64,000 nucleotides of DNA, from NCBI RefSeq assembly GCF_002042965.1, contig NZ_MZNT01000011.1, positions 248,001 through 312,000 on the forward strand. Reading direction: 5' to 3'. The translations under genes and the position numbers were made by a program. Of this stretch, positions 13,586 through 28,754 are shown one piece after another. The notes beneath the pieces were generated by a model that saw only the letters and a program-made list of their open reading frames with translations, made no database searches and was not told where the DNA came from. Origin of the DNA: Paenibacillus sp. 32352 (GTDB lineage Bacteria; Bacillota; Bacilli; Paenibacillales; NBRC-103111). How positions within the stretch are numbered: the stretch's first letter is position 1; the number at the start of each line of letters is the position of its first letter.

Positions 13586-13604
13586 ATGGAAACGGTTTCT
13601 TTGC
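13586..13604 (+). promoter_or_regulatory. Operator-like site before the GH2 gene
   Basis: ATGGAAACGGTTTCTTTGC contains the palindrome GAAACGGTTTC (13589-13599) and resembles a catabolite-response (cre) or other LacI-family site. TATAAA (13571-13576) just upstream could be a -10 element, although no good -35 is visible. The site is 81 nt before the chosen start codon. Confidence 0.55.
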
Positions 13605-13666
13605 GAGATAGAGATGGGGATGCAATATCGCGGATGCGAAGAAGTAAGGATAAGGAGAACAATTGG

Positions 13667-16600
13667 ATGATTGGATCATTACCGCAGCCTATATCGCTTC
13701 ACGGAGTTTGGCGTTTTCAGCTTGATGAGAATAATGTTGGTATCCAGGAAACATGGTATAACCGGCATAGCTTAGACCATACGATCCTGCTGCCGGGCAC
13801 ATTACAGGCTCAAGGCTTTGGTCACAAAATATCGGCCGATACGCCATTCGTTGACGGCTTGCACGACCGCTTATGGTTTTTGCGAGAGGAATACAAGGAA
13901 TTTACCGAAAAGGATCATACCAAGGTTCCTTTTTTATCACAACCGGTTAGGCATTATATTGGGGCAGCCTGGTACCAGACCGACATCGATATTCCTCCGG
14001 AATGGGAAAATAAGCGTGTGGAGCTTCATCTTGAACGCGCACGATGGAAAACATCGGTTTGGATTGATGATCAGAGCTTTGGCGATTACGATAGTCTTTG
14101 CGCTGAACACATCTACGATCTTGGTATATTACGAAAGGGGAACCATGTATTAACCATTAGGGTAGATAACAGTATGATTTATCCCTATCGCCCTGATGCC
14201 CATGCTGTGTCGGATTCCGTGGGAAACACATGGAATGGGATCGTCGGCACAATGGAGCTTGTTCCCAAGTCTCTCACAGGGCTCGACGATATTTCCGTTT
14301 ACCCGGATTATTCAACCAAGAGCGCGCTTGTTAAAATCCATATTACCAATCGAAGCGGAAGCCGGCATCGTGGTGCTATTGTCATAAAAAAGACGATAAA
14401 CCTTAATTGTTCAGACAATGACAAATACCCGACGAGTAGCGATAACGAGACCTTTCATGCCGATATTGACCACGAAGGTGGGATTATAGAGTATACCGTG
14501 CAGCTTGGGGAGAACGCCTCCCTGTGGGATGAATTTAATCCCGCTCTGCATCAATTGGATATTACCCTGACAGATCGGCAAAGCGGTGAGATCGTTGATA
14601 CGAAATCCGTAACATTTGGTCTTAGAAATATTACAACTCAAGGGAGAAATTTCGTACTCAACGGAAGAAATATTAGCTTTAGAGGAACCCATGATGCAGG
14701 CTGCTTTCCTTTGACAGGCTCCCCTTCAACGGATGTAGAGGAGTGGAGAAGAATCATGTCTATATGTAAACAATGGGGCATGAATCATATCCGCTATCAT
14801 TCCTGGTGCCCGCCTGAAGCGGCATTTGTTGCAGCTGATGAGGCAGGCATATACCTTCAGATAGAAACCGGCATGTGGAATTATTTTATTCCGGGAGCCG
14901 TTATTGAACAGCAGCTGCATGTTGAGACAGATAGAATTATCAAAGCGTACGGCAACCATGCATCCTTTCTTCTATTGTCATCAGGCAATGAGCCGCATGG
15001 GAATTATAAACCTTGTGTGAGAAGCTGGGTTGCAAAGTACAGGAAGCTGGACAACAGACGTCTCTACTGCGCCCAGTCAGGCTGGTTTTGGCCCAGGGAC
15101 GGTGAACCTGTTGACGGAACGGATTATTATTACACGTGCAGCCGTGGGGAAGGAAGAATGAGAGGTATACACGGCTGGTTTGGCCGTGATTATTCCAAAT
15201 ACCTCGAAGATATGGAAGTTCCTTTCCTGTCTCATGAAGTAGGCCAATATTGCGCCTATCCTGATTTTTCAATCATCCCTAAGTTCACAGGTTATTTGCG
15301 TGCCGGAAACTATGAAATATTCAAGCATTCTCTGGAAAGACATAAGATGCTCCATAAGAATGCGGACTTTGTGCAGGCATCAGGAATACTTCAAGCAGCG
15401 GCTTATAAGGAGGAAGTGGAAGCCAATCTTCGTACGTTCGGCTATTCCGGTTTTTCACTACTGGATCTGCATGATTATCTTGGCCAAGGAAGCGCCCTTG
15501 TCGGTTTGCTGGATGCCTTTTGGGAGCCAAAGCCTTACATTAATCCGGAGCAGTTCAGACGTTTTTGTGCTCCGGTCGTTCCGCTTGCAAGAATAAACAA
15601 ATTGGTATATACAGCGAGTGATACTTTGTGCGCGGACCTCGAAATCGCATGCTTCGCCGAGGAGGATTTACTCGAGTTATCCATATATTGGAAAATTATA
15701 GATGAAAGCGGCAAGGTGTATATCAACGGCAGTTTTGACAAGCAAGAGATTAGAACGGGAAAAAATTCTTTCATCGGGACAATAGAGACCGATTTAGGCG
15801 GCCTTCCAGCACCTTCAGCTTATAAACTCGTCATTGGCGTCGAGAATACAGCTATTGAAAATGACTGGAAGTTCTGGGTCTACCCGGCGAAGAGCGATTT
15901 TTCAACCTTCGATAGTGTCCATGTTACAAAAAGCTTTAGCGAGGCTGTGCGTTTATTAAAAAACGGCGAAAAGGTTTTATTCTTGCCGGCAGCGGAAAGT
16001 CTGGATTATCATTGTCCGCCGCTCTCGATATTGCCGCCGTTTTGGAATACGCAGATGGGTCCGAAATGGTCAAGAAGTCTCGGGCTTTGGTGCGATACGG
16101 CGCACCCGGCACTCGCGGAATTTCCCACCTCCTGCGGTATGGAATGGCAATGGGCTGAGATCGTTGATAATGCCCGCGGCATCAATATCGAAGCATTACC
16201 TGATGAAGTAGAGCCTTTCATCTGGCCTATAGACGATTGGAACCGTAATTATAAGCTCGCTTTGGCGTTCGAATGCAATCTTTATAACGGCAAGCTGGTG
16301 GTATGTTCCGCCAATCTTGTAAAGGATCTTGATCAAAGACCGGCAGCAAGACAGCTCCTTTACTCCATTCTAAAATATATGGACAGCACTGACTTTCAAC
16401 CTAAAGTCAAAGTGACCAAGAAGCAGCTTCAATCATTTCTATTTGATACGGCGGTCATGAAAAGATTGAATACAACAGTGAAGCTCGTTGAAGAGGAAGC
16501 AAGTGATAGCAGGGATATTAAGGTGGATTTGACAGCACCCGACACTTCAATTGACCGTATACTAGACGGCGACCCTAACACGTATTGGCTTGCAGGCGGA

Positions 16601-17053
16601 CCCTACGGCGGGAAGTATCCTTTTGTTCTGGAATTTGAGGTGGACCGGCCCGTCTCGGTACGGGGAATCCATGTGATGCCCAGACAAAATCATAGGGATG
16701 CGGAAGGGGCCGTAAGAAGATATGAAGTATACGCTTCGCTGGACGGCAATGAATGGATTCATGCTGCATCCGGAGAGTTCTCGGCATCGTTCGACTTAAA
16801 AAGAGTATACTTCGATAGCAGTATGATGCTCCGGAAGCTTCGGCTTAAATTAATGGAGGGCTTCGGAGCCGAGGACGTATTTTATTGGATAAGAGATAAC
16901 GGTTTCAGATCAACCCGCGCCCCATATCAGGATGAATGCGCATCGTTAGCCGAGGTTTCGTTTATCTGTGATGAAAGCAGTGAATCCATACATTCAGATA
17001 ATATAAAGATTCAATATAAACAAGTGGGCACTGCATCAGAGGAGATCTACTAG
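13667..17053 (+). CDS. Large glycoside hydrolase family 2 enzyme (beta-galactosidase/beta-glucuronidase type) with C-terminal discoidin-like domain
   Basis: 1128 residues, no signal peptide. It has an N-terminal jelly-roll domain (about 1-215, ISLHGVWRFQLD, YQTDIDIPPEW) and Ig-like domains. A TIM barrel follows (about 340-640), with acid/base Glu442 in SSGNEPHG and nucleophile Glu524 in LSHEVGQY. The C-terminal discoidin/CBM32-like domain (about 945-1105) contains DRILDGDPNTYW. GH2 covers exo-galactosidases, glucuronidases, mannosidases and arabinosidases; I cannot choose among them. The ATG at 13667 has TAAGGAG 9 nt upstream. A start at 13586 would place coding sequence over the operator-like site, so I reject it. 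Being probably cytoplasmic, it would act on oligosaccharides after uptake. The binding protein B gene upstream is the likely partner. Confidence 0.85.
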   Translation: MIGSLPQPISLHGVWRFQLDENNVGIQETWYNRHSLDHTILLPGTLQAQGFGHKISADTPFVDGLHDRLWFLREEYKEFTEKDHTKVPFLSQPVRHYIGAAWYQTDIDIPPEWENKRVELHLERARWKTSVWIDDQSFGDYDSLCAEHIYDLGILRKGNHVLTIRVDNSMIYPYRPDAHAVSDSVGNTWNGIVGTMELVPKSLTGLDDISVYPDYSTKSALVKIHITNRSGSRHRGAIVIKKTINLNCSDNDKYPTSSDNETFHADIDHEGGIIEYTVQLGENASLWDEFNPALHQLDITLTDRQSGEIVDTKSVTFGLRNITTQGRNFVLNGRNISFRGTHDAGCFPLTGSPSTDVEEWRRIMSICKQWGMNHIRYHSWCPPEAAFVAADEAGIYLQIETGMWNYFIPGAVIEQQLHVETDRIIKAYGNHASFLLLSSGNEPHGNYKPCVRSWVAKYRKLDNRRLYCAQSGWFWPRDGEPVDGTDYYYTCSRGEGRMRGIHGWFGRDYSKYLEDMEVPFLSHEVGQYCAYPDFSIIPKFTGYLRAGNYEIFKHSLERHKMLHKNADFVQASGILQAAAYKEEVEANLRTFGYSGFSLLDLHDYLGQGSALVGLLDAFWEPKPYINPEQFRRFCAPVVPLARINKLVYTASDTLCADLEIACFAEEDLLELSIYWKIIDESGKVYINGSFDKQEIRTGKNSFIGTIETDLGGLPAPSAYKLVIGVENTAIENDWKFWVYPAKSDFSTFDSVHVTKSFSEAVRLLKNGEKVLFLPAAESLDYHCPPLSILPPFWNTQMGPKWSRSLGLWCDTAHPALAEFPTSCGMEWQWAEIVDNARGINIEALPDEVEPFIWPIDDWNRNYKLALAFECNLYNGKLVVCSANLVKDLDQRPAARQLLYSILKYMDSTDFQPKVKVTKKQLQSFLFDTAVMKRLNTTVKLVEEEASDSRDIKVDLTAPDTSIDRILDGDPNTYWLAGGPYGGKYPFVLEFEVDRPVSVRGIHVMPRQNHRDAEGAVRRYEVYASLDGNEWIHAASGEFSASFDLKRVYFDSSMMLRKLRLKLMEGFGAEDVFYWIRDNGFRSTRAPYQDECASLAEVSFICDESSESIHSDNIKIQYKQVGTASEEIY

Positions 17054-17273: not shown

Positions 17274-18176
17274 TCAGAACTTCCCGCCCCTGCTTGAAGA
17301 CTTTCTATACTGGGTGGGTGACATCCCCGTGTGCTCTTTGAACTTTTTGCAGAAATAGCTGCTCGATGAATATTCGGCCGAACGCGCTACCTCGTCTATG
17401 GTGAGCTTTGTCCCGGTCAGCAGCTTCTTGGCAATTTCCAGCTTTTCGTTCGATAGCTTCTGCTTGAAGGTCATATGAAATTGTTTTTTCATAAGCCTAT
17501 GCAAATGGCGCTTGCTGACCTTTAGCTCGCTCGCCATTTGCTCCAGCGACATACCCGGTGTTTCTGCGTTCATAAGCGCATCAAGCAGATGCTCTCTTTT
17601 TTCGTTTAAGGTTTTGCGGGGCAGCGTGTAATCAGCCTTATTCTGGCCGCGGTAGCTGCGAACCGCGTTGACGATAATCTGGGACACGTAACTTCGGATG
17701 TTATGGTAGTAGCCGATCAGCCGGTTATCTAATTCGTTCATAATTTTCTGGAACAGCTCCATGCTGCCGTACTCGTCCTCTCCGAACCAGAATCGCGTAG
17801 AAGTTAGCGTTTCGATCATCAGGTCGGCTTCGATGCGGAGATACTCGTTGTCCTGCTTTCTTTTCTTCAAAACAGTAATATCAAAGGTAATACAGCATTC
17901 CGCAAGAGGGTTATCAGCAAAGGTCGTTTGCTCATGATAGATCATCGGGCCGGTCAGATAAAACGTATTGGGCTTCAGTGTGTAATGATCTCCCTCGGCG
18001 ATGAGCCGGCCGTACCCGTATGGTATGAAATGCAGCTCGTAGCCACCGTGCGCATGGTTCCTATTAGCCCGTTGGGAGGCAGGAACGAATCGGATATACC
18101 ATACGTTAATTTGCAAATGTCCCATCTGAATCCGTAAGTCCAGCTCGTCGTAATCCCGGCGAAATTGAATGTCCAT
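17274..18176 (-). CDS. AraC-family transcriptional regulator
   Basis: 300 residues. The N-terminal cupin domain contains NHAHGGYELHFIPYGYGR, a histidine-rich sugar-pocket type. The C-terminal helix-turn-helix pair (about 195-292) has MSLEQMASELKVSKRHLHRLM and IDEVARSAEYSSSSYFCKKF. It is transcribed away from binding protein C, whose start lies 171 nt away, so a shared divergent promoter region and control of that gene are likely. A GGGAG ribosome site precedes the ATG. The ligand is unknown. No further gene on this strand follows it before the GH2 terminator. Confidence 0.9.
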   Translation of the reverse strand: MDIQFRRDYDELDLRIQMGHLQINVWYIRFVPASQRANRNHAHGGYELHFIPYGYGRLIAEGDHYTLKPNTFYLTGPMIYHEQTTFADNPLAECCITFDITVLKKRKQDNEYLRIEADLMIETLTSTRFWFGEDEYGSMELFQKIMNELDNRLIGYYHNIRSYVSQIIVNAVRSYRGQNKADYTLPRKTLNEKREHLLDALMNAETPGMSLEQMASELKVSKRHLHRLMKKQFHMTFKQKLSNEKLEIAKKLLTGTKLTIDEVARSAEYSSSSYFCKKFKEHTGMSPTQYRKSSSRGGKF

Positions 18177-19785: not shown

Positions 19786-20667
19786 ATGAATTTTGAGCCG
19801 CTTAGAGGCCAGCAGGCTGCTCTTATTAACTCTGACAGCCTACGGATCGATCCGACAGCCAAACAATCCGCACCGCCGCAGCTCCAAGAAAAAGTACTTT
19901 CTGGATTCGTCGTTCGAGACTCCGTAGAGATTAGCGAAACCGGCAGACAACTGGCAGAAGGCGATCTTAAGTCACAGCCTATGAAGTATTTCGGTACAAC
20001 CCAGATCAACGATTCGTTAAGCCGGGTTTTGGAAGGACAGCCAGAAGAAGTATCCAATGCAGTGTACAGGATGATCGAGTCCAATTTTATCGTTGACGGA
20101 ACAGTAACGGATGATAGTCAGCGAGCTGTGCTGCTGGAGATGGGACTATCCCAATCCAGGTATATTGCAGAGCATTATATGGAAGGCGGTAAGGCCAAAC
20201 AATTCCTAGAAACGATGGACAGGATCGCCGCGATTGCTACGACACGATCCATTGACCCAGGGACCGGGGATATTAGCTACACGACTCCTCCAGATCGCCC
20301 GGTAGGTGCCCCTGAGGACTACATCAAACCATCGGAACTGATGAAGCTGGTAGCTCCCCAGCAATATGCCGCGTTCGAAAATGACATAAAAAATGGGGGG
20401 AATGGGCTGAGCCATTTGCTGGACTTTGTACGAAAGATTCCCCAAAACCCCGGTTGGATAGAGAGATATAAGGAGCATACGAAGCAGACTGAGGCGGTAT
20501 TGAATAACGTGGAGCTAACAAACCGGTTTGAAAAAGCCGATACGACATCAGCCTCCGCCTTTATGAACAGTATGCAGGATCTCCTTAAGGAAACGACTGC
20601 TGTAAACGATTCTTACCTTAGGAATATGCGGGAATTTTTCCGGGGCCTGGGCGTACAGGTTCATTGA
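19786..20667 (+). CDS. Conserved-looking protein of unknown function
   Basis: 293 residues, mostly helical and soluble, with no signal peptide, membrane segment or known catalytic motif that I recognise. Residues 45-57 (DSVEISETGRQLA) resemble the short D-x-V-E-I-S motif at the start of FlgM and several flagella-associated proteins of Bacillus-type bacteria. This is a weak hint only. A good AGGAGG precedes the ATG, and a terminator follows directly, so it is a single-gene unit. Its upstream -10 region could fit sigma-D, which would suit a motility link. Composition is similar to its neighbours, so recent transfer is not suggested. Confidence 0.7.
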   Translation: MNFEPLRGQQAALINSDSLRIDPTAKQSAPPQLQEKVLSGFVVRDSVEISETGRQLAEGDLKSQPMKYFGTTQINDSLSRVLEGQPEEVSNAVYRMIESNFIVDGTVTDDSQRAVLLEMGLSQSRYIAEHYMEGGKAKQFLETMDRIAAIATTRSIDPGTGDISYTTPPDRPVGAPEDYIKPSELMKLVAPQQYAAFENDIKNGGNGLSHLLDFVRKIPQNPGWIERYKEHTKQTEAVLNNVELTNRFEKADTTSASAFMNSMQDLLKETTAVNDSYLRNMREFFRGLGVQVH

Positions 20668-20679
20668 ATGAATTGAAGG

Positions 20680-20724
20680 AAAGGTCGGATTGGAGCCTAG
20701 TCTTGCTCTTAATTCGGCCTTTTT
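20680..20724 (+). terminator. Terminator after the unknown protein
   Basis: Stem 20680-20691 with 20711-20722 (AAAGG core, one wobble and one mismatch), followed by T residues. It starts 12 nt after the stop. Confidence 0.7.
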
Positions 20725-20800
20725 GGGGTTCAGCCCGATTAGAGTTGATCAAGAAATATCAAAGCTTCATCACCACAGACACACATAGCAGGAGATGCCA

Positions 20801-20829
20801 TTGACTAACAAAGCGCAGTGAGTTATAAT
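20801..20829 (+). promoter_or_regulatory. Strong promoter before the HPr-like gene
   Basis: TTGACT (20801-20806), exactly 17 nt, then a perfect TATAAT (20824-20829). Transcription would start near 20836, leaving a leader of about 105 nt before the HPr-like gene. Confidence 0.85.
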
Positions 20830-20879
20830 CAGGTTATTACATAGTATTCCAATAGGAATTATTAGTCAACCAGACAACT

Positions 20880-20917
20880 GGAGATTCGCCTATTTCATAG
20901 GTTTGAATCTCCTTTTT
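20880..20917 (+). terminator. Leader terminator (possible attenuator) upstream of the HPr-like gene
   Basis: GGAGATTC (20880-20887) pairs with GAATCTCC (20905-20912), with a second inner stem CCTAT/ATAGG, and is followed by five T. It lies between the promoter and the ribosome site. CCAG...CTGG at 20870-20881 overlaps the base of the stem and could compete with it. It either controls read-through into the gene or ends a small RNA of about 80 nt. Confidence 0.75.
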
Positions 20918-20941
20918 ATTTTCCACAGGGAGGGACTCCAT

Positions 20942-21226
20942 TTGAAGATTTTACGAAACTACCAATTTCCAAACGGATTTTCGTTGAGGCAGATCCTCAA
21001 ATTCGTCAGTGCGGCAAATCAATTCAAGAGCCAAGTCTCGTTTGCATCTGACGGTTATTTATTGAATTCTAAGGGGGTCCTGGGTATGGTACTGTTCTTC
21101 TCCCAATTCCCAAGAACCGAGGAGATCCAATTGATCATAGAAGGCACGGATGCGGATGAAGCGAATAAAATTCTCGAATCCATCTTATATTCAGGCAGTT
21201 CGTACGCTTATAGCGCAAAGTCGTAG
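20942..21226 (+). CDS. HPr-fold protein lacking both phosphorylation sites
   Basis: 94 residues, the size of HPr. It aligns along its length with HPr: GFSLRQILKFVSAANQF against the active-site helix, NSKGVLGMVLF against the regulatory helix and EGTDADEANKILESIL against the last helix. The histidine that HPr uses to carry phosphate is a serine here (GFSLR), and the regulatory serine is a glycine (SKGVLG). It therefore cannot work as a normal phosphocarrier. The start is a TTG with GGGAGGG 7 nt before it; a longer frame from 20903 overlaps the leader terminator and is unlikely. The MFS gene follows after 44 nt. A regulatory role is possible. Confidence 0.72.
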   Translation: MKILRNYQFPNGFSLRQILKFVSAANQFKSQVSFASDGYLLNSKGVLGMVLFFSQFPRTEEIQLIIEGTDADEANKILESILYSGSSYAYSAKS

Positions 21227-21270
21227 GATAGTTATATCTTGATGAGCAAGCGAACGAAAAGGAGGGCGGG

Positions 21271-22470
21271 ATGGAGCTTCATTGGAGACGAAATCTTAGC
21301 ATATTATGGCTCGGTTTATTTCTCAACCATATAGCTTATACGTTGTCGGTGCCCTTTTTTCCGCTTTTTCTACAGACGGAGCTGGGGATCAGTAAAGGCG
21401 TCGAAGCCTGGTCGGGAGTGTCGATTTCGATCAGCTTCCTCATTAGCGGTTTATGTGCGCCCTTCTGGGGATCTCTTGCTGATAAATATGGCAGGAAATT
21501 GATGCTGGTTCGTTCGGGGATTGGGCTTGGTGCGGCTCACCTTGCTAACTATTTCGTTTACGACCCGTATACGTTCATCGCGGTCCGCATATTCCAAGGG
21601 TTAATGGCCGGCTTCAGCCCTGCGTCGGTCGCGTTGGTCGGCACGAACACGCCGGAAAAGCATGTCGGTTACGCTCTGGGCGTTATATCGACGGCGACTG
21701 CAGCTGGAGGGATTCTAGGGCCGCTGGCGGGAGGACTGTTGATCCATTGGGTCGGATTACGGGAATGCTTCATAGCTTCCGCCATAATCACATTCCTATC
21801 CGCCATCCTTGTTCTTGCAGGGGTTGTAGAGATTCACAAAAAGCAGGAAGGACCGCGGCCTTCCATGATAGACGACTTGAAGCAAGCGGGGCAGAACCCC
21901 CGGTTGATGAGGATTTACTGGTTAATTTTCCTTGTATCGACATCCGTCATGATTTTGGAACCGCTGATTACCATCTATGTCGTGCAGATCGGCGGAAGTG
22001 CGGACAAGGCTTCGCTCAGCTCGGGCGTCGTATTCTCTGCGGTCGGGATCGCTACGGTCATTATGGGCCCCCGGTGGGGAAGGATCGGCGGACGGATTGG
22101 TTATCACAAAACGTTGCTGATCGGCCTGCTCGGCGGGGGGATCGGCAATCTGCTTCAGCTCGGAGTCACTCATTTGCTTGGTTTCGGCCTATTGCGCTTC
22201 GGTTACGGGTTATTTTTCGCGGCCGTTTATCCGGCCTTGAATGCACTCATTATCCGTTATGCGGACAATGAATTTCGCGGCCGGGCGGTCAGCTTAAGCC
22301 AATCCGCCAACCAGTTCGGCATCGTCGTTGGCCCCCTGCTGGGAGGATTTATCGGTGGATGGATCAGCATACCGTTCGTATTCCTCCTGACCGGAGTCGC
22401 GCTGCTGGCAGCCGCATGTGCAATAAGAACGCTCGGTTCGGGACAAATAGACCGGACGGCATCCGGGTAA
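21271..22470 (+). CDS. MFS efflux transporter (12-segment multidrug type)
   Basis: 399 residues, about twelve hydrophobic segments. The loop GSLADKYGRKLMLVRS is MFS motif A, and TAAGGILGPLAGGLL matches the antiporter motif C in segment 5, which points to export. Members of this group expel drugs or sugars; the substrate cannot be read. AAGGAGG lies before the ATG. It is probably co-transcribed with the HPr-like gene from the promoter at 20801 and ends at the terminator at 22485. Confidence 0.87.
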   Translation: MELHWRRNLSILWLGLFLNHIAYTLSVPFFPLFLQTELGISKGVEAWSGVSISISFLISGLCAPFWGSLADKYGRKLMLVRSGIGLGAAHLANYFVYDPYTFIAVRIFQGLMAGFSPASVALVGTNTPEKHVGYALGVISTATAAGGILGPLAGGLLIHWVGLRECFIASAIITFLSAILVLAGVVEIHKKQEGPRPSMIDDLKQAGQNPRLMRIYWLIFLVSTSVMILEPLITIYVVQIGGSADKASLSSGVVFSAVGIATVIMGPRWGRIGGRIGYHKTLLIGLLGGGIGNLLQLGVTHLLGFGLLRFGYGLFFAAVYPALNALIIRYADNEFRGRAVSLSQSANQFGIVVGPLLGGFIGGWISIPFVFLLTGVALLAAACAIRTLGSGQIDRTASG

Positions 22471-22484
22471 TCAAGGGAGACAGG

Positions 22485-22519
22485 AAGCTGGCGCTATTTA
22501 TGGCGTCAGCTTATTTTTT
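22485..22519 (+). terminator. Terminator after the MFS gene
   Basis: Stem 22485-22494 with 22503-22512 (one G-T pair), loop of 8, then six T. It overlaps the 3' end of a decayed gene on the other strand. Confidence 0.85.
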
Positions 22520-22740
22520 GAGCCTCCAGGTGCCTTAAAGCTGTATTCGCATCCGGAATTTTCCCCTTGACATAGTCATTATAGTATTTATCAATAATGA
22601 AGGAATCCTTTCGAAAGTCTGGCGGGTATCATCAAGTTGTCGATGAGATTTTCGAATTTAAAAGACAAAACCATATCTAACATCCCTTCAGTTATGAGAG
22701 GTTGTTTGAACTCGAGGGTCCGGATGGGCTGAGGAAGTAG
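22506..22740 (-). pseudogene. Remnant of a sugar-binding lipoprotein gene (C-terminal end)
   Basis: Reading the minus strand from 22628 to 22506 gives YPPDFRKDSFIIDKYYNDY and then VKGKIPDANTALRHLEAQ. This is the kind of tail found at the end of solute-binding proteins of ABC importers. A stretch in another frame just upstream (KFENLIDNL) may continue the same protein across a frameshift, and stop codons interrupt it. No start or signal peptide remains. It is the only content of the 375-nt gap apart from two terminators. Confidence 0.45.
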
Positions 22741-22844: not shown

Positions 22845-25103
22845 TTAATGAATTACTTTGAATGAATCCTTGCCGGTGAAGGTCCTTCCGTCCCGCAGAT
22901 AACCGGTGATACTAAACGGAATGCTGCCATTCAGCCCGGCTAACGCGTTGATGACTTGCTGCCTGTCAAACTTGACCGTTAATTTCCCGTTGGCGTCCCG
23001 ATCAAGATCTCCCGCTTCCATCGGAGCGGATTGGGCATAGATGGTCACGCCATTGATATTCATCCTTATGGAAGCAGCGTTTACAAGCGAGACATCCTTC
23101 GAGGCGAGTTTAATGGTTGCTGTGATGTATTTTCCATTACTTTTCAAATTTAATGTTTTCGGCTGGGCTTCCACGTCTGCGTCTATTAGTTTGCCTGCGT
23201 AATAAATATTCGGAGTAGGAGGAGCAGCCATGCCATCTCCAAGGTAATAATCGGTTAAATGAGATTGGACATACCCTTTAATCGTCATCCCATTACGGTA
23301 CAGCGGATTGTGAGGGAGCGTATAGATTCGGTGATCTGTTGGAATCGGTGTTGTGAAAATGATGAGCTTATTGTAATCCTTATTGGTTAATATAGCCTCT
23401 TCACGCCAGTCGCCCATAATATCGCCGAGGAACTTGGGAACCCCGCGCCAGCTGCTAACCGCATTTTCATAATTCGTAGTCGTTACCAAACGAGACACGG
23501 AGGTTGTTTGATAATTCCATTTTTCGATTTTCCCGTTATTATAGCTTTCACTCAATAAATCCCCGTCCCAGAACATACGCATTGTTGGCCACGGATTCCC
23601 TTTATTATCCTTTGTGGTGATCTGTGTGTTGCTCGGGCCGTGGTATATTCCTTCAAATGAAAAGACTTCATAACCGGGATAACGAGGGTCAATATCCCCA
23701 ACGTCGCCACGACCTACATCCCATGCAGGAGGTGTAGTACTATGCTGCCAAATCATCTGACCTGTAGTGGCATCGTAATAGTACTCAAGTAAACCATAAG
23801 GGTTACGCTGCTGAATTCCGTATCCCTGAAGCCCAGGCCGGTTCGGATCCATCTTGCCGATGTAGAAGCGATCCCCGTGCACGATGTTACTGTCCGTCAA
23901 AGAATAGAGCAGCGTGCCGTCATGATCCAATACGAAGCCGATTTGGGCAACCTCATCTTTCCCGTCCCCATCTATGTCCGCGATACGGATTTGGTGACCG
24001 TCAGCGAGGTCCTCAGAACCGCGCAGCCATTTCCAGTCTCTTACGAGATTGTCACCCTCCAAATGATAAGCAGCAATAAGCATATTAAAGCCGCCGTCAG
24101 CTCTACGATTTTTGGCATTAACGACAACACTCGGCGTTGTGCCGTTAAGATATCCGATGCCAAGCTGAGCGGCCAACGGACCGATGGAAATATAATCATC
24201 TGGAAGCTCGCTGGTGCTTTGAAGTTTTCCTGTCATGCCGTTAAGTACTGCCAGCCATTGTTTCGTATCGTTTTGATCGGTCCATACCTCGCCATCCCCA
24301 AACTTCACGCCATTGGCGATCTTGAGAAGGACTTCTGCCTTCCCGTCTCCATCCATATCATAAACAGTAAGCCCATCCCAATGTCCAACACTAACTGTAG
24401 CTGAACCAGGGGAAATATTGTCCTGATTCATGCTGTTAGGACCAAGATTTACTTCCCACAGAAAGGTTCCGTCGCGTTTGTACGCTTCAATGATCTGAGG
24501 CTTCTGGGCATCGCGAGCCACGAGATAATCATATTCACCATCACCGTCAAGATCTCCAACCCATATATGATTGATGCTGCCGCCATCACGTATTGGAACG
24601 GTGAAGTAAGGTGCATCCACAGGATTGGCTGGAAGGGTAAACGAAGCACTGGCTTTTTGTTCTTGACCGCCAATCACCGGCTTCACAAAATAAACATTAT
24701 CCTTCGTCAGATCAGCCGTAGTGTCTGTATAATTAGTGCCCTTTGTCAGAACGGAACCATTTAGCTTAACGGCTTGACCGCCTGCTGTGGAACGATAAAC
24801 ATCAAAACCAATCCCTGAAGGATCCAATGCGAGCAACCGCCAACTGATAAATACATTGGAGCCACTGCGGACTGCAACGACTCCACGGCCCAGATCTTCC
24901 ATGCGTCTTAACAAATCACCATTCGTCGGGGCTGACTGGCCCGGGGATTGTTCCAAAGTAGTATAAACGCTGGTTGTGACAGAGGCTGTTTCCGCCTCAT
25001 TTACGATTGGACCACCGGTTTCATTTGCGTTTGCAGCTAATACCGAGCTGTACATAGTCGTGCATAAAGAAAGTATTAAAGATAGGCCAACTACTTTTTT
25101 CAC
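22845..25103 (-). CDS. Secreted rhamnogalacturonan lyase, family PL11, with extra C-terminal domain
   Basis: 752 residues. The signal peptide ends near VLAANA (about residue 25). The core (about 65-640) is a PL11 eight-bladed beta-propeller: RRMEDLGRGVVAV, repeated calcium-type loops such as GDLDGDGEYDYL, YDMDGDGKAEVL and ADIDGDGKDEVA, and SHLTDYYLGDGMAAPP at the end. PL11 enzymes such as YesW and YesX cleave the rhamnose-galacturonate backbone of rhamnogalacturonan I. About 110 residues follow (from about 642), ending in GYLRDGRTFTGKDSFKV, an Ig-like module absent from the second PL11 protein here. Its N-terminus also has a linker of about 40 residues. It is downstream of an orphan binding protein and a second PL11 gene on the same strand. 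Confidence 0.93.
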   Translation of the reverse strand: MKKVVGLSLILSLCTTMYSSVLAANANETGGPIVNEAETASVTTSVYTTLEQSPGQSAPTNGDLLRRMEDLGRGVVAVRSGSNVFISWRLLALDPSGIGFDVYRSTAGGQAVKLNGSVLTKGTNYTDTTADLTKDNVYFVKPVIGGQEQKASASFTLPANPVDAPYFTVPIRDGGSINHIWVGDLDGDGEYDYLVARDAQKPQIIEAYKRDGTFLWEVNLGPNSMNQDNISPGSATVSVGHWDGLTVYDMDGDGKAEVLLKIANGVKFGDGEVWTDQNDTKQWLAVLNGMTGKLQSTSELPDDYISIGPLAAQLGIGYLNGTTPSVVVNAKNRRADGGFNMLIAAYHLEGDNLVRDWKWLRGSEDLADGHQIRIADIDGDGKDEVAQIGFVLDHDGTLLYSLTDSNIVHGDRFYIGKMDPNRPGLQGYGIQQRNPYGLLEYYYDATTGQMIWQHSTTPPAWDVGRGDVGDIDPRYPGYEVFSFEGIYHGPSNTQITTKDNKGNPWPTMRMFWDGDLLSESYNNGKIEKWNYQTTSVSRLVTTTNYENAVSSWRGVPKFLGDIMGDWREEAILTNKDYNKLIIFTTPIPTDHRIYTLPHNPLYRNGMTIKGYVQSHLTDYYLGDGMAAPPTPNIYYAGKLIDADVEAQPKTLNLKSNGKYITATIKLASKDVSLVNAASIRMNINGVTIYAQSAPMEAGDLDRDANGKLTVKFDRQQVINALAGLNGSIPFSITGYLRDGRTFTGKDSFKVIH

Positions 25104-25325
25104 TAAAAAATCTCCCTTCCTTGGCTGTTATTCGGATCTATCCTCTCATGGGAAGAATTACAATTCTGTTATGTAAATGGGTAGGGGGTGTGATGTAGAG
25201 AAATGGCTGATCGGTCTCATACGGCCCCCCCCTGCAAAACTGACAGCGCATACAATACAGGATTGTTCCATTTTATACCTCATCGGCTTATTGATACTTT
25301 GTTGAAACCGCTCCACGCTTTGTTA

Positions 25326-26654
25326 TCATTTGGCTTGCTCGGCTTCGATTTTCTTGTTCGAATTTTCATCGATCGTACGAAGTGCCGTATTCATATCGGT
25401 TTCCCCTAGAACAACCTTTGGCAGCAATGCTTTGACCTCGTTTTCCGGAGTGCCGTCGTATGGTGACTTCATGGGAATAGCTGCCGGTTTATGGGCGAAT
25501 ACAGCAGACCAGTTTTTATCCTTAAAGGGACTTCCCTGGGCAAAAGCTTTCTTTACGGTATCGCTTGTCAGGACAGGAACCTCACCTTTTTTGGAGATGG
25601 CCAATTGAAACTCTTCGGAAACCAAATATTTGATGACTTTTATTGCCGCTTCTTTGTTTTTACTTGTTTTTGTGACGCTGAAATAGACCGGATAAGGCTG
25701 GCTTCCGGTTCCAGGCATATCCTTGAACACCGGCAAAGTTGCGATATCCCAATTCATCCCTTCCATGGCACTGGCGCTTGTAAACACAGTACTGGTCAAT
25801 CCGACATACATGGCCAGATTGCGATCCTTCACGAAATTGTCCTTGGTAGGAAGATTCCCCGATCGTACGTTCATCATGAACTCTTTGTACCCTGCATTTG
25901 AAGCCGGCTTCACATAGATTGCCTCAAGAAGCTTATTCCATAATTCGTTGGTGCTGAAGGTGGCTTTGAGCGTTTTGGGATCCACGGTCCCAAGGGAGTA
26001 TTGATTCGTTCTGAGAACATGCCCGGTCTCCCCATATAGACCCACGATTTGCTGTCCGTTCTCGTTTCTTGTCAGCTGCTTGCTGAGCTCAGCCGCCTCA
26101 TCCCAGGTTAACCCGTCTTTGGGATAAGGTACGCCGAACTTATCAAACAAATCCTTGTTATAGAACAAGACCACATTCAAGTTCGTGACTGGTATTCCCC
26201 ATAGGCCGCCGCCGGAAAGCTGCTTCATCCCATTCACAGCCACCGGATCAAGCTGATTTAAATCGATATTTTCTTTTTTGATCAACTCGCTCATATCGTA
26301 TTGCAGGTCATTTTTCACCATGGAATTCATGAAATAGCCGATGGAATCGAAATTCATATCGATCGGTTGGTTTGCAGCGAACAGCTCGCTTTTGCTTGTT
26401 CCCTTGCCAGTCTTGATATAGGTGATGGTGTAATTAGGGAATTTACTGCGGATCGCATTGCCGAACCGTTCATCGAAGCTCTCCACAGAATCGCCGCTAT
26501 CGGAATGAATCACCAATTCCACAGGTTTGCTATCCTCTTCAGACAAGCTCACGTTAGATTCCTGACCGGTCTTTTCGCTGTTGCTGCACCCCGTTGCCAG
26601 CGCAGCAGCGATAGTGAAGGTGAGCATCGTACTGCCAGTTTTTTTACGATTCAC
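25326..26654 (-). CDS. Orphan sugar-binding lipoprotein D
   Basis: 442 residues with lipobox LATGC. The mature part carries LFYNKDLFDKFGVPYPKDGL and WDEAAELSKQLTRNENGQ. It is closest to protein A at 2742: both share FDERFGNAIR or FNERFGNAIR and a following KFPNYTI or KFPSYTI block. It lies between two PL11 rhamnogalacturonan lyases on the same strand. A bound rhamnogalacturonan oligosaccharide is therefore a reasonable guess. A promoter with TTGATA / TATATA sits 100 nt upstream. No permease gene is adjacent. Confidence 0.87.
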   Translation of the reverse strand: MNRKKTGSTMLTFTIAAALATGCSNSEKTGQESNVSLSEEDSKPVELVIHSDSGDSVESFDERFGNAIRSKFPNYTITYIKTGKGTSKSELFAANQPIDMNFDSIGYFMNSMVKNDLQYDMSELIKKENIDLNQLDPVAVNGMKQLSGGGLWGIPVTNLNVVLFYNKDLFDKFGVPYPKDGLTWDEAAELSKQLTRNENGQQIVGLYGETGHVLRTNQYSLGTVDPKTLKATFSTNELWNKLLEAIYVKPASNAGYKEFMMNVRSGNLPTKDNFVKDRNLAMYVGLTSTVFTSASAMEGMNWDIATLPVFKDMPGTGSQPYPVYFSVTKTSKNKEAAIKVIKYLVSEEFQLAISKKGEVPVLTSDTVKKAFAQGSPFKDKNWSAVFAHKPAAIPMKSPYDGTPENEVKALLPKVVLGETDMNTALRTIDENSNKKIEAEQAK

Positions 26655-26756
26655 TTTGTATTTCCCCCTTAATAATCGAAACTCATCCCTGCTGGCTCAA
26701 AAAACAACTGCCATTGACTGTGAAAGTTAGATTGCCACACCCCCATATTTTAACTT

Positions 26757-26785
26757 TATATACCATTTAAGTAATTACATATCAA
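26757..26785 (-). promoter_or_regulatory. Promoter of binding protein D
   Basis: On the minus strand TTGATA (26785-26780), 17 nt, TATATA (26762-26757), about 100 nt before the start codon. The surrounding sequence is AT-rich. Confidence 0.5.
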
Positions 26786-26921
26786 CTCCTTTCAATATTT
26801 GGGATAACGAATTATTGATCATAGACTAACAAACTCTCTGGGGAAATTCCCCGCATATCTTACGTATTCGCTCGGTAAATCCCGCATTTTTGGACAAGAT
26901 AGGTTATATGCAAAGGCATCA

Positions 26922-28754
26922 TTATGGCGTTAAATAAATATTCGGTTTGGGCGGTGTAGACATTCCGCTTCCAAGGTAATAATCCGTTAAATGAGACTGC
27001 TTGTATCCTTTAATAGTCATACTGTTCCGGTATAAAGGGTTTTGAGCAAGAGTGTAGAGTCGTGTATTGGTTGGTAGGGGAGTAGTAAAGATGACGAGCT
27101 TTGAAAAATCACTGCTTGTTAAAATAACTTCTTCACGCCAGTCACCGAAAATATCACCGTAGAACATAGGAGCACCACGTTCACTGCGAGTGGCTGTATG
27201 GTAATTCCAGGTAGTTACCAATCTGGAAACAGAGCTTGAGCTATAGTTCCATTTCTCAATTTTTCCGTCATTAAAGCTTTCACTCAAGAGATCTCCGTCC
27301 CACCACAAACGGAAGGCAGGGTATGGTGCTGCCGTCGTTGTTATCTGATTGTTAGTCGGGCCGTTATAAATTCCTGAGAAAGACCACGTTTCGTAACCGG
27401 AATACCGGGGGTCAATATCCCCAACATCTCCACGGCCAACATCCCCCGCTGGAGGTGTAGTAGTATGCTGCCAAAGCATCGAGCCCGTCGTAGCATCGTA
27501 ATAGTACTCAAGCAGCCCAAACGGATTGTCCTGTTGAATACCATAGCCTTGAAGTCCCGACCTGTTGGGATCCAGCTTGCCGATATAGAAGCGGTCGCCA
27601 TGTACAACATTGCTGCCCGCCAAAGAGTAACGTAATGTACCGTCGCCATTAAGGACGAAGCCAATTTCCGCTATCTCGTCTTTACCGTCGCCATCCAGGT
27701 CCGCAATCCGCATTTGATGGCCGTCCGGGGCGTTTTGTGAACCGCGTAACCATTTCCAATCCCTTGTAAGGTTAGAGCCGCTCCAACGATAAGCAGAAAC
27801 AACACAATTAAAGGAGCCGTCTGAATTACGGTTTTTCGCAAAAACAACGATGCTTGGAGTCGTTCCATTGAGATAACCAATGCCCAATTGAGTGGCTAGA
27901 GGGCCAACAGAGCTATAATCGTCCGGAAGGGGAGAGTAATTTTTGAGCGCTCCCGTCATACCGTCAAGTACAGCAAGCCATTGTTTCGTATCACTGCTGT
28001 TATTCCAAACAGTACCATCGCCAAAAGTAACACCATTCGCGATTTTGAGTACGACTTCGGCTTTGCCGTCTCCATTCAAATCATAAACCGTAACGCCATC
28101 CCACATTCCGACACTAATCGTTGAAGAACCGGGTGAAATGTTGTTTTGATTGCTGCTGTTGGGCCCGAGATTGACCGACCATAGAAAAGTGCCATCGCGT
28201 TTGTAGGCTTCCAGTCTCTGAGGAGTTGTTTCGGTACGGTCCACGAGAAAATCGTATTCATGATCCCCATCAAAATCTCCGACCCATACGTTTTTAATGG
28301 CTGAGCCGCTGCGCAGCGGAACCGTGACGACAGGTTCATCTGCATGGTTAGCCGTAAGGGTAAATGAAGCGCTTGCCGCTTGTTCCGCACCGCTGATTAC
28401 CGGTTTCACGTAATAACTATTAGACTTGGTAAGATCGGCAGTCGTGTCCGTAAAATTGGTGCCTCCGGTCAAAACCGAGCTGTTTAGCTTGACTGCGGTG
28501 CCGCCTCCTGCAGATCGGTATATATTAAAACCAATTCCTGACGAATCCAGCGCCAGTAAACGCCAGCTGATAAAAACATTGGAGCCATTTCGAACAGCTA
28601 CTACACCCCGGCCCAGGTTTTCCATTTGCCTTGGCCCGATTGCTGCGTCTGCCGAGTAGATGGGGAAAAATAATGAAGTAGTGATGAGGGTAGAAGCAAC
28701 GATTAAATTCAAGCTGCGCTTTAGTAATCTGCCAGTCTTTTTCAATAAAATCAA
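26922..28754 (-). CDS. Secreted rhamnogalacturonan lyase, family PL11 (YesW type)
   Basis: 610 residues. A basic start, a hydrophobic core and cleavage near ADAAIG (about residue 38) give a signal peptide. The complete PL11 propeller follows, from RQMENLGRGVVAVRNG to SHLTDYYLGSGMSTPP and PNIYLTP. Calcium-type loops GDFDGDHEYDFL, YDLNGDGKAEVV and ADLDGDGKDEIA are kept. The protein ends where the propeller ends, so it is the standard length for YesW-like enzymes. It is clearly a paralogue of the lyase at 22845, differing mainly by lacking the linker and C-terminal module. It should cut the rhamnogalacturonan-I backbone outside the cell. The next gene downstream encodes binding protein D, which could capture the products. 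Confidence 0.94.
   Translation of the reverse strand: MILLKKTGRLLKRSLNLIVASTLITTSLFFPIYSADAAIGPRQMENLGRGVVAVRNGSNVFISWRLLALDSSGIGFNIYRSAGGGTAVKLNSSVLTGGTNFTDTTADLTKSNSYYVKPVISGAEQAASASFTLTANHADEPVVTVPLRSGSAIKNVWVGDFDGDHEYDFLVDRTETTPQRLEAYKRDGTFLWSVNLGPNSSNQNNISPGSSTISVGMWDGVTVYDLNGDGKAEVVLKIANGVTFGDGTVWNNSSDTKQWLAVLDGMTGALKNYSPLPDDYSSVGPLATQLGIGYLNGTTPSIVVFAKNRNSDGSFNCVVSAYRWSGSNLTRDWKWLRGSQNAPDGHQMRIADLDGDGKDEIAEIGFVLNGDGTLRYSLAGSNVVHGDRFYIGKLDPNRSGLQGYGIQQDNPFGLLEYYYDATTGSMLWQHTTTPPAGDVGRGDVGDIDPRYSGYETWSFSGIYNGPTNNQITTTAAPYPAFRLWWDGDLLSESFNDGKIEKWNYSSSSVSRLVTTWNYHTATRSERGAPMFYGDIFGDWREEVILTSSDFSKLVIFTTPLPTNTRLYTLAQNPLYRNSMTIKGYKQSHLTDYYLGSGMSTPPKPNIYLTP

Follow-up and report, generated by a model that had tools for sequence, protein, structure and literature searches.

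The analysed window, a stretch of 64,000 nucleotides from the 7.9 Mb genome of Paenibacillus sp. 32352, contains between positions 20801 and 22519 a block of features that was read as one two-gene transcription unit (Table 1). It consists of a promoter, a leader with two overlapping hairpins (P1 and a terminator), the gene of an HPr-like protein, an MFS transporter gene that is taken to belong to the same unit, and a closing terminator. The near-consensus promoter described in the first-pass annotation was confirmed by comparison with the related locus of genome G011 (L039), where the spacer has diverged. Weight was placed on this conservation because the promoter scan returned three sites with at least nine matches compared with 2.6 in shuffled sequences, so that such sites are no more numerous than in shuffles. 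Transcription would start near position 20836, which gives a leader of approximately 105 nt.

Table 1. Features of the two-gene unit, in window coordinates
Feature	Position	Strand	Basis
Promoter TTGACT-17-TATAAT	20801..20829	+	11/12 consensus matches; both hexamers conserved in G011
Upstream box, 26 bp, TACATAGTATTCCAATAGGAATTATT, operator-like	20838..20863	+	Matrix matches in other leaders
P1 hairpin CCAG-ACAA-CUGG, proposed antiterminator or recognition hairpin	20870..20881	+	Covarying middle pair
Intrinsic terminator and its U-tract; G20880-G20881 also belong to P1	20880..20922	+	Folding, alignment
HPr-like gene, TTG start, 94 aa	20942..21226	+	ORF, Pfam, alignments
MFS transporter gene, 44 nt after the HPr-like gene	21271..22470	+	MFS_1 match
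Terminator closing the two-gene unit	22485..22519	+	22480-22520 folds at -18.6 kcal/mol; 0/200 shuffles equally stable

An attenuator-like leader with a terminator hairpin ahead of the ribosome-binding site had also been proposed, and this description held. The hairpin (20879–20912) folds at -15.7 kcal/mol (z = -4.87; none of 200 shuffled sequences was equally stable), continues into TTTTTATTTT, and is followed by the Shine-Dalgarno sequence GGGAGGGA (20928–20935) and the TTG start codon at 20942. It is missing from a simple terminator scan because its stem has an internal loop. The gap between stem and start codon measures 30 bases and has no promoter listed in it; transcription therefore must cross the hairpin. 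As judged from sequence, the leader has the anatomy of an attenuator, with a promoter, a conserved alternative hairpin and a terminator before the gene. Attenuation by a leader peptide was considered and rejected: it is unlikely because no ATG, GTG or TTG occurs between the inferred transcription start and the hairpin, and the frame that is open through the window leader is not conserved in G011. An inverted repeat (TTGACTAA/TTAGTCAA, at 20801 and 20862) is absent in G011 and was taken as a chance occurrence.

The second gene had been annotated as an MFS exporter. Its assignment to the MFS stands (Pfam MFS_1, 214 bits), whereas exporter function was not supported, the MdtG model scoring 217.7 bits against a cut-off of 571. 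The block 20793–22476 is shared with G011 at 85% DNA identity, the flanking genes seen there being different, and leader, HPr-like gene and MFS gene also occur together in G108. Comparison of the window with G011 gives the impression that promoter, leader, HPr-like gene and MFS gene moved as a unit; in G108 a different MFS gene ends just upstream of the block. Other genes of the window (13586–17053, 17274–18176, and 22845–28754) resemble, partly as judged by eye, functions in the use of plant cell-wall sugars. They include binding proteins, an AraC-type regulator, two large secreted proteins that are related to each other, and an exo-beta-1,4-galactosidase-like enzyme whose 917 bits fall short of the 1500-bit cut-off.

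The HPr-like protein and its relatives

The first gene product matches the Pfam PTS-HPr family (PF00381) with 30.8 bits (cut-off 23) and stays under the cut-offs of the NCBIfam HPr models (e.g., TIGR01003, 23.1 vs 47.9 bits). Alignment with HPr- and Crh-type proteins of the same genome places Ser at the position of His15 and Gly at that of Ser46, in agreement with the earlier claim that the protein is HPr-like and lacks both phosphorylation sites. The helix-2 motif K-G-L/V-L-G is retained, and among solved chains Crh is the nearest in sequence (E = 2.8e-5). The further claim that the rest of the fold is kept is consistent with an AlphaFold model that has the strand and helix order of HPr and with which Foldseek retrieved HPr-family chains exclusively at ranks 1 to 40, although this model, calculated from a three-sequence alignment, is of low confidence (pLDDT 56.5, pTM 0.38). 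The protein is, by sequence, an HPr-family member with a probable HPr fold.

Crh of Bacillus subtilis resembles the window protein in belonging to the HPr family, lacking the catalytic His, keeping the docking helix, and being its best match in the PDB. At the place of the catalytic His, Crh has Gln in our alignment, whose profile also contained true HPr rows. Unlike the HPr-like group, which has Gly, Crh keeps the Ser46 site; the group further differs by two extra residues before strand 4 and by its location in sulfur operons. The crh gene lies beside whiA, and in the genome studied here this position appears by eye to be occupied by a separate gene, L001, whose product has retained His and Ser. 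By the features compared (His15, Ser46, and whiA as a neighbor) the window protein is neither a phosphocarrier nor Crh. Seven HPr-type proteins of this genome exceed the Pfam cut-off, three of which (L001–L003) have both His and Ser, while four, including the window protein, have no catalytic His. The other three of these (L004, L005, and L007, on contigs C55, C38, and C11) keep the Ser46 motif, and no P1 leader was seen in the upstream stretches displayed for them. Among the three closest homologs the HPr-like gene has dN/dS ratios of 0.12–0.20 (NG86), with YN00 values of 0.18–0.19 for two homolog pairs, a range that indicates purifying selection on the protein.

A profile built from the window protein and its two closest homologs (named records with the closest homologs: Paenibacillus sp. 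RC67 and P25) matched 31 of 392 genomes of the order at E ≤ 1e-5. Four of the matched genomes lie outside the family, and their hits are HPr genes that retain His and Ser (L011, L097, L102, and L104); the remaining 27 belong to the family (Paenibacillaceae group), 21 of them to the genus g32. In an alignment of 20 members, from which near-duplicates (L084, L087, L090, L091, L098, L100, and L101) were excluded, His15 is lost throughout (Thr in 12, Ser in five, and Ile, Lys, and Asp in one each), and the Ser46 place holds Gly in 19 members and Glu in one. The group splits from HPr, Crh, and the other site-less paralogs with 98/96 support in a tree whose bootstrap had not settled and some of whose branches are long.

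The P1 hairpin was found 76–159 nt before the start codon in 24 of 26 HPr-like loci checked and was absent at L082 and L012, the former having a weak leader match farther upstream (15.8 bits). The gene that follows is more variable. It encodes an MFS protein in the window, G011, and G108. At the remaining 24 loci it is the gene of a LysR regulator (13 loci), a luciferase-like monooxygenase (five), or another protein (five); at L079 (G048) an SsuB-like ABC protein and a binding protein come after the HPr-like gene. These neighbors were labeled by eye, with Pfam run on one LysR and one HPr-like representative. The comparison thus indicates that the next gene varies and that leader and HPr-like gene stay together. 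The MFS protein was rejected as a constant partner, since only L042–L044 among 30 MFS loci show an HPr-like gene upstream and some loci of g32 have it downstream. At L085–L087 the same MFS gene sits just upstream of the HPr-like gene, and L089 has a fragment of this MFS gene. Because no neighbor is constant, the partner of the HPr-like protein is unreadable from synteny. At several loci (L083, L084, L088, L090, L091, and others) the leader or the HPr-like gene is immediately preceded by the gene of a protein of approximately 70 amino acids that has no family match and ends in RIPIF or RVPLF.

Structure and spread of the leader

The leader motif, A-CCRG-AYNR-CYGG-AGA, forms a small hairpin with covariation in its stem, and the 3' arm of this hairpin overlaps the terminator. 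In an alignment of 89 leaders (A6; 88 distinct rows, as one genomic site was counted in two overlapping loci) P1 has a stem of 4 bp and a loop of 4–5 nt, 99.3% of the cells are paired, and seven of ten pairs show two-sided changes. The covariation score of 0.354 was reached by none of 500 shuffles (mean 0.157), and slid versions scored at most 0.090. Fitting of the alignment to the model favors this score, but the spacing of P1 is nearly constant. In 88 of 89 rows the terminator stem gains two pairs from the 3' arm of P1, and the second one is mostly a G-U pair formed with the beginning of the U-tract. P1 and terminator share bases and are therefore arranged as an antiterminator and a terminator would be. 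Folded alone, P1 of the window is a weak hairpin (-4.1 kcal/mol), equaled in stability by 19 of 200 shuffles.

It is hardly tenable that the hairpin is an unregulated terminator behind which the gene is tolerated at low read-through or is decaying. The strength of the terminator and the lack of ATG, GTG, or TTG codons ahead of it, which speaks against leader-peptide control, would fit such a view; the overlap of P1 and terminator is, however, conserved in the leaders of a coherent set of genes, and the purifying selection on the HPr-like protein argues against decay.

Its form of a short inverted repeat placed downstream of promoters, and the lack of a clear terminator at three loci of sulfate-binding genes, would allow the motif to be a DNA operator rather than an RNA element. 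This is contradicted by the middle pair of P1, which in the 88 distinct rows of A6 is A-U in 38, G-C in 38, G-U in 11, and another or unpaired combination in one, and never A-C. Such an asymmetry fits RNA wobble pairing and does not fit a DNA repeat, and we regard the operator explanation as extremely improbable. A looser pattern search of 13 genomes returned four A-C matches among 99, and the two examined (L115 and L124) lie inside open frames of more than 500 codons.

In the sulfate-binding-gene leaders of three genomes of the genus (L113, the same place as L150; L121; L143) P1 is kept and no clear terminator is present, so termination may not be the sole output of the element. In four other genomes (L201, L220, L224, and L247) the match before the sulfate-binding gene spans the whole covariance model including the terminator.

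This model, R1, was built from 20 leaders (alignment A3), all of HPr-like genes. At E ≤ 1e-4 it detected leaders in 80 of 104 genomes and 15 of 22 genera of the family, and at E ≤ 1e-5 in 33 of 398 genomes and 19 of 146 genera of the Bacilli, 365 genomes having no match at this threshold. These counts are lower bounds because long or CCGG-extended terminators score low and the larger searches used stricter filters; that terminator-type motifs are common in general is a caveat for leader matches. The pattern ACCRGNNNRCYGGAGRY, searched with coding sequence included, gave 99 matches in 13 genomes of the genus compared with 18 for a reversed control. Within the window R1 found one good place (E = 7.4e-19; next, 0.054). 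In the whole genome the window leader (9.2e-17) is followed by five more leaders down to E = 0.013, which precede LysR plus monooxygenase, ssuE-like, ssuD-like, family-1 binding-protein, and sulfate-binding genes (partly assigned by eye). Eleven weaker matches have E-values above 0.04, and the one that was read (L151) sits in an open frame. The leader of an ssuB/C-like operon was found by the pattern and scored 28.4 bits when its locus was searched with R1; four of the ten pattern matches in this genome lie inside open frames and were taken as chance.

Rfam 15 gave no match at E ≤ 1 for ten leader loci. A known riboswitch was rejected for the window leader, since Rfam yielded only two sub-threshold matches in the window region 20601–21400, one of them on the other strand; the fluoride riboswitch match, with 14.1 of the required 34 bits, is on the other strand. 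A small hairpin that overlaps the 5' arm of a terminator and is used by a regulon is a feature shared with the RAT leaders of LicT and SacY, the ANTAR leaders (EutV, NasR), and the HutP leaders. The RAT is a stem with internal loops, and ANTAR targets are paired hexaloop hairpins; P1, with its 4-bp stem and loop of 4–5 nt, differs from both, as judged by Rfam scans and a comparison of shape. By analogy, the leader looks built like those of protein-dependent antitermination systems, for which it is a candidate.

Sulfur genes behind the leader and a model of control

Downstream genes were assigned for 60 leaders sampled from the listed R1 matches that ranked under the HPr-like ones, skipping near-duplicates from close relatives. 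Among these loci, in some of which the choice of the ORF is uncertain, 27 downstream proteins match at E ≤ 1e-5 the SsuA (n = 10), SsuE (n = 5), luciferase-like monooxygenase (n = 5), sulfate-binding (n = 4), or TauD (n = 3) families. LysR regulators follow in four loci at the same threshold, and the rest comprise parts of ABC transporters, other binding proteins, various enzymes, and frames without a family. For scale, NMT1, the SsuA-type family, is matched nine times in the whole genome studied here. The pattern made 16 of 19 loci from other orders readable, and 12 of these 16 precede SsuE-, SsuD-, SsuB/C-, TauD-, or NtaA-like genes (assigned by eye), the remaining four being binding proteins or ambiguous. 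The leader family and the neighbors of the homologs thus point to sulfur assimilation.

This context bears on the role that had been suggested for the protein, that of a dead HPr in competition with HPr or Crh for a partner. The partner could be CcpA, HPr kinase, or Enzyme I, and carbon catabolite control would then be modulated. With both phosphorylation sites gone and Crh as the nearest solved relative, such a function would suit the protein, and with the helix-2 motif kept it might compete for a partner. However, both the leader family and the surroundings of the homologs lead to sulfur genes, with no carbon-control gene recognized beside them. A role in carbon control through competition for CcpA or Enzyme I was consequently not upheld, and we consider it unlikely.

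The upstream box offers a possible second level of control. With a 26-bp matrix built from 13 HPr-like leaders and a threshold set at 1% of shuffles, a box site above threshold was found in 41 of 64 other leader matches (60 loci; one site was counted twice), but only two places in the genome studied here match the 23-mer box with at most three mismatches. One might guess at a resemblance to the CymR operator. The single CymR site compared, that of B. subtilis cysK, scores -4.5 on the matrix, within the range of shuffles (218 of 2,000 as high), and this one site gives no support for naming the box after CymR. CymR is described as controlling ssu in B. subtilis (PMC3828012). The control of cysteine and sulfonate genes by CymR/CysK likewise constitutes a sulfur regulon of the Bacillales, to which the window leader family would add an RNA layer.

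In the reading that we regard as probable, the two genes form an operon of a sulfur-assimilation regulon in which an attenuated leader lets a Crh-like, phosphorylation-blind adaptor be made when sulfur is short. Transcription would begin at the sigma-A-type promoter, which carries the operator-like box at its start site. When sulfur is plentiful the regulon would be off at two steps, initiation via the box and termination in the leader, as the polymerase would stop at the terminator unless something holds P1, whose 3' arm is shared with the terminator stem. Shortage of sulfur may then induce the operon by supplying a factor or ligand that holds P1, an antitermination event that would let the polymerase pass. 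Read-through would yield the HPr paralog without both classical phosphorylation sites, together with the MFS transporter. The paralog would most likely serve as a docking adaptor for a partner in sulfur scavenging; phosphate could not switch it, and its level would be the signal.

HPr switches PRD antiterminators, phosphate being the signal. A bolder version of the adaptor model, which we regard as a long shot, is that the sulfur regulon of Bacilli is under a new RNA attenuator and its factor and that, in part of the Paenibacillaceae, a never-phosphorylated HPr paralog switches this factor by its abundance. It is very unlikely that the HPr-like protein itself binds P1 and controls the regulon including its own gene. 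P1 lies directly upstream in 24 of the 26 HPr-like loci even though the following gene differs, which speaks for such a binder. Leaders, however, occur in 80 of 104 family genomes, and in the order sample 27 genomes of the family have an HPr-like match (E ≤ 1e-5), 26 of them being among those 80. Distant homologs could have escaped this search, and the order sample may not cover all 104 genomes. G010, for instance, has five leaders (E ≤ 1e-4) and no HPr-like match listed. The distribution among genomes thus argues against the HPr-like protein as general P1 factor.

In bacilli, Naville and Gautheret (2010; PMC2965389) reported a common premature-terminator element that lies upstream of both a sulfonate transporter operon and a gene of unknown function. 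In the section compared here, the attenuator has neither a name nor a structure, and no HPr-like gene is mentioned with it. Apart from this possible mention (PMC2965389), no description of the leader element or of the Gly46 HPr group was met in the literature searched, a partial coverage that leaves most subscription journals outside. The adaptor model joins an HPr paralog that lacks both signaling residues across its group to sulfur scavenging, a pairing likewise not met in that partial coverage. In Bacilli the leader delimits a broad group of genes that are apparently controlled by RNA, and it gives a means of predicting organosulfur genes. As the hairpin, the terminator, and the genes are available, the question of sulfur sensing is directly testable.

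Some further observations concern individual leaders. A 108-amino-acid protein with its own P1-like hairpin (L114 at C22:245519 in the genome studied here, and L134 in G004) is a candidate regulator; it has no Pfam or NCBIfam family above cut-off and is encoded approximately 5 kb behind the P1 leader of a sulfate-binding gene. Pairs of pattern matches approximately 5 kb apart occur in six of the 13 genus genomes, the genes having been checked in two. At C3:77.7–77.9 kb of the genome studied here, two P1-type leaders on opposite strands (L109 and L149) stand back to back; a nitroreductase-like gene follows one of them, and a gene for a family-1 binding protein follows the other.
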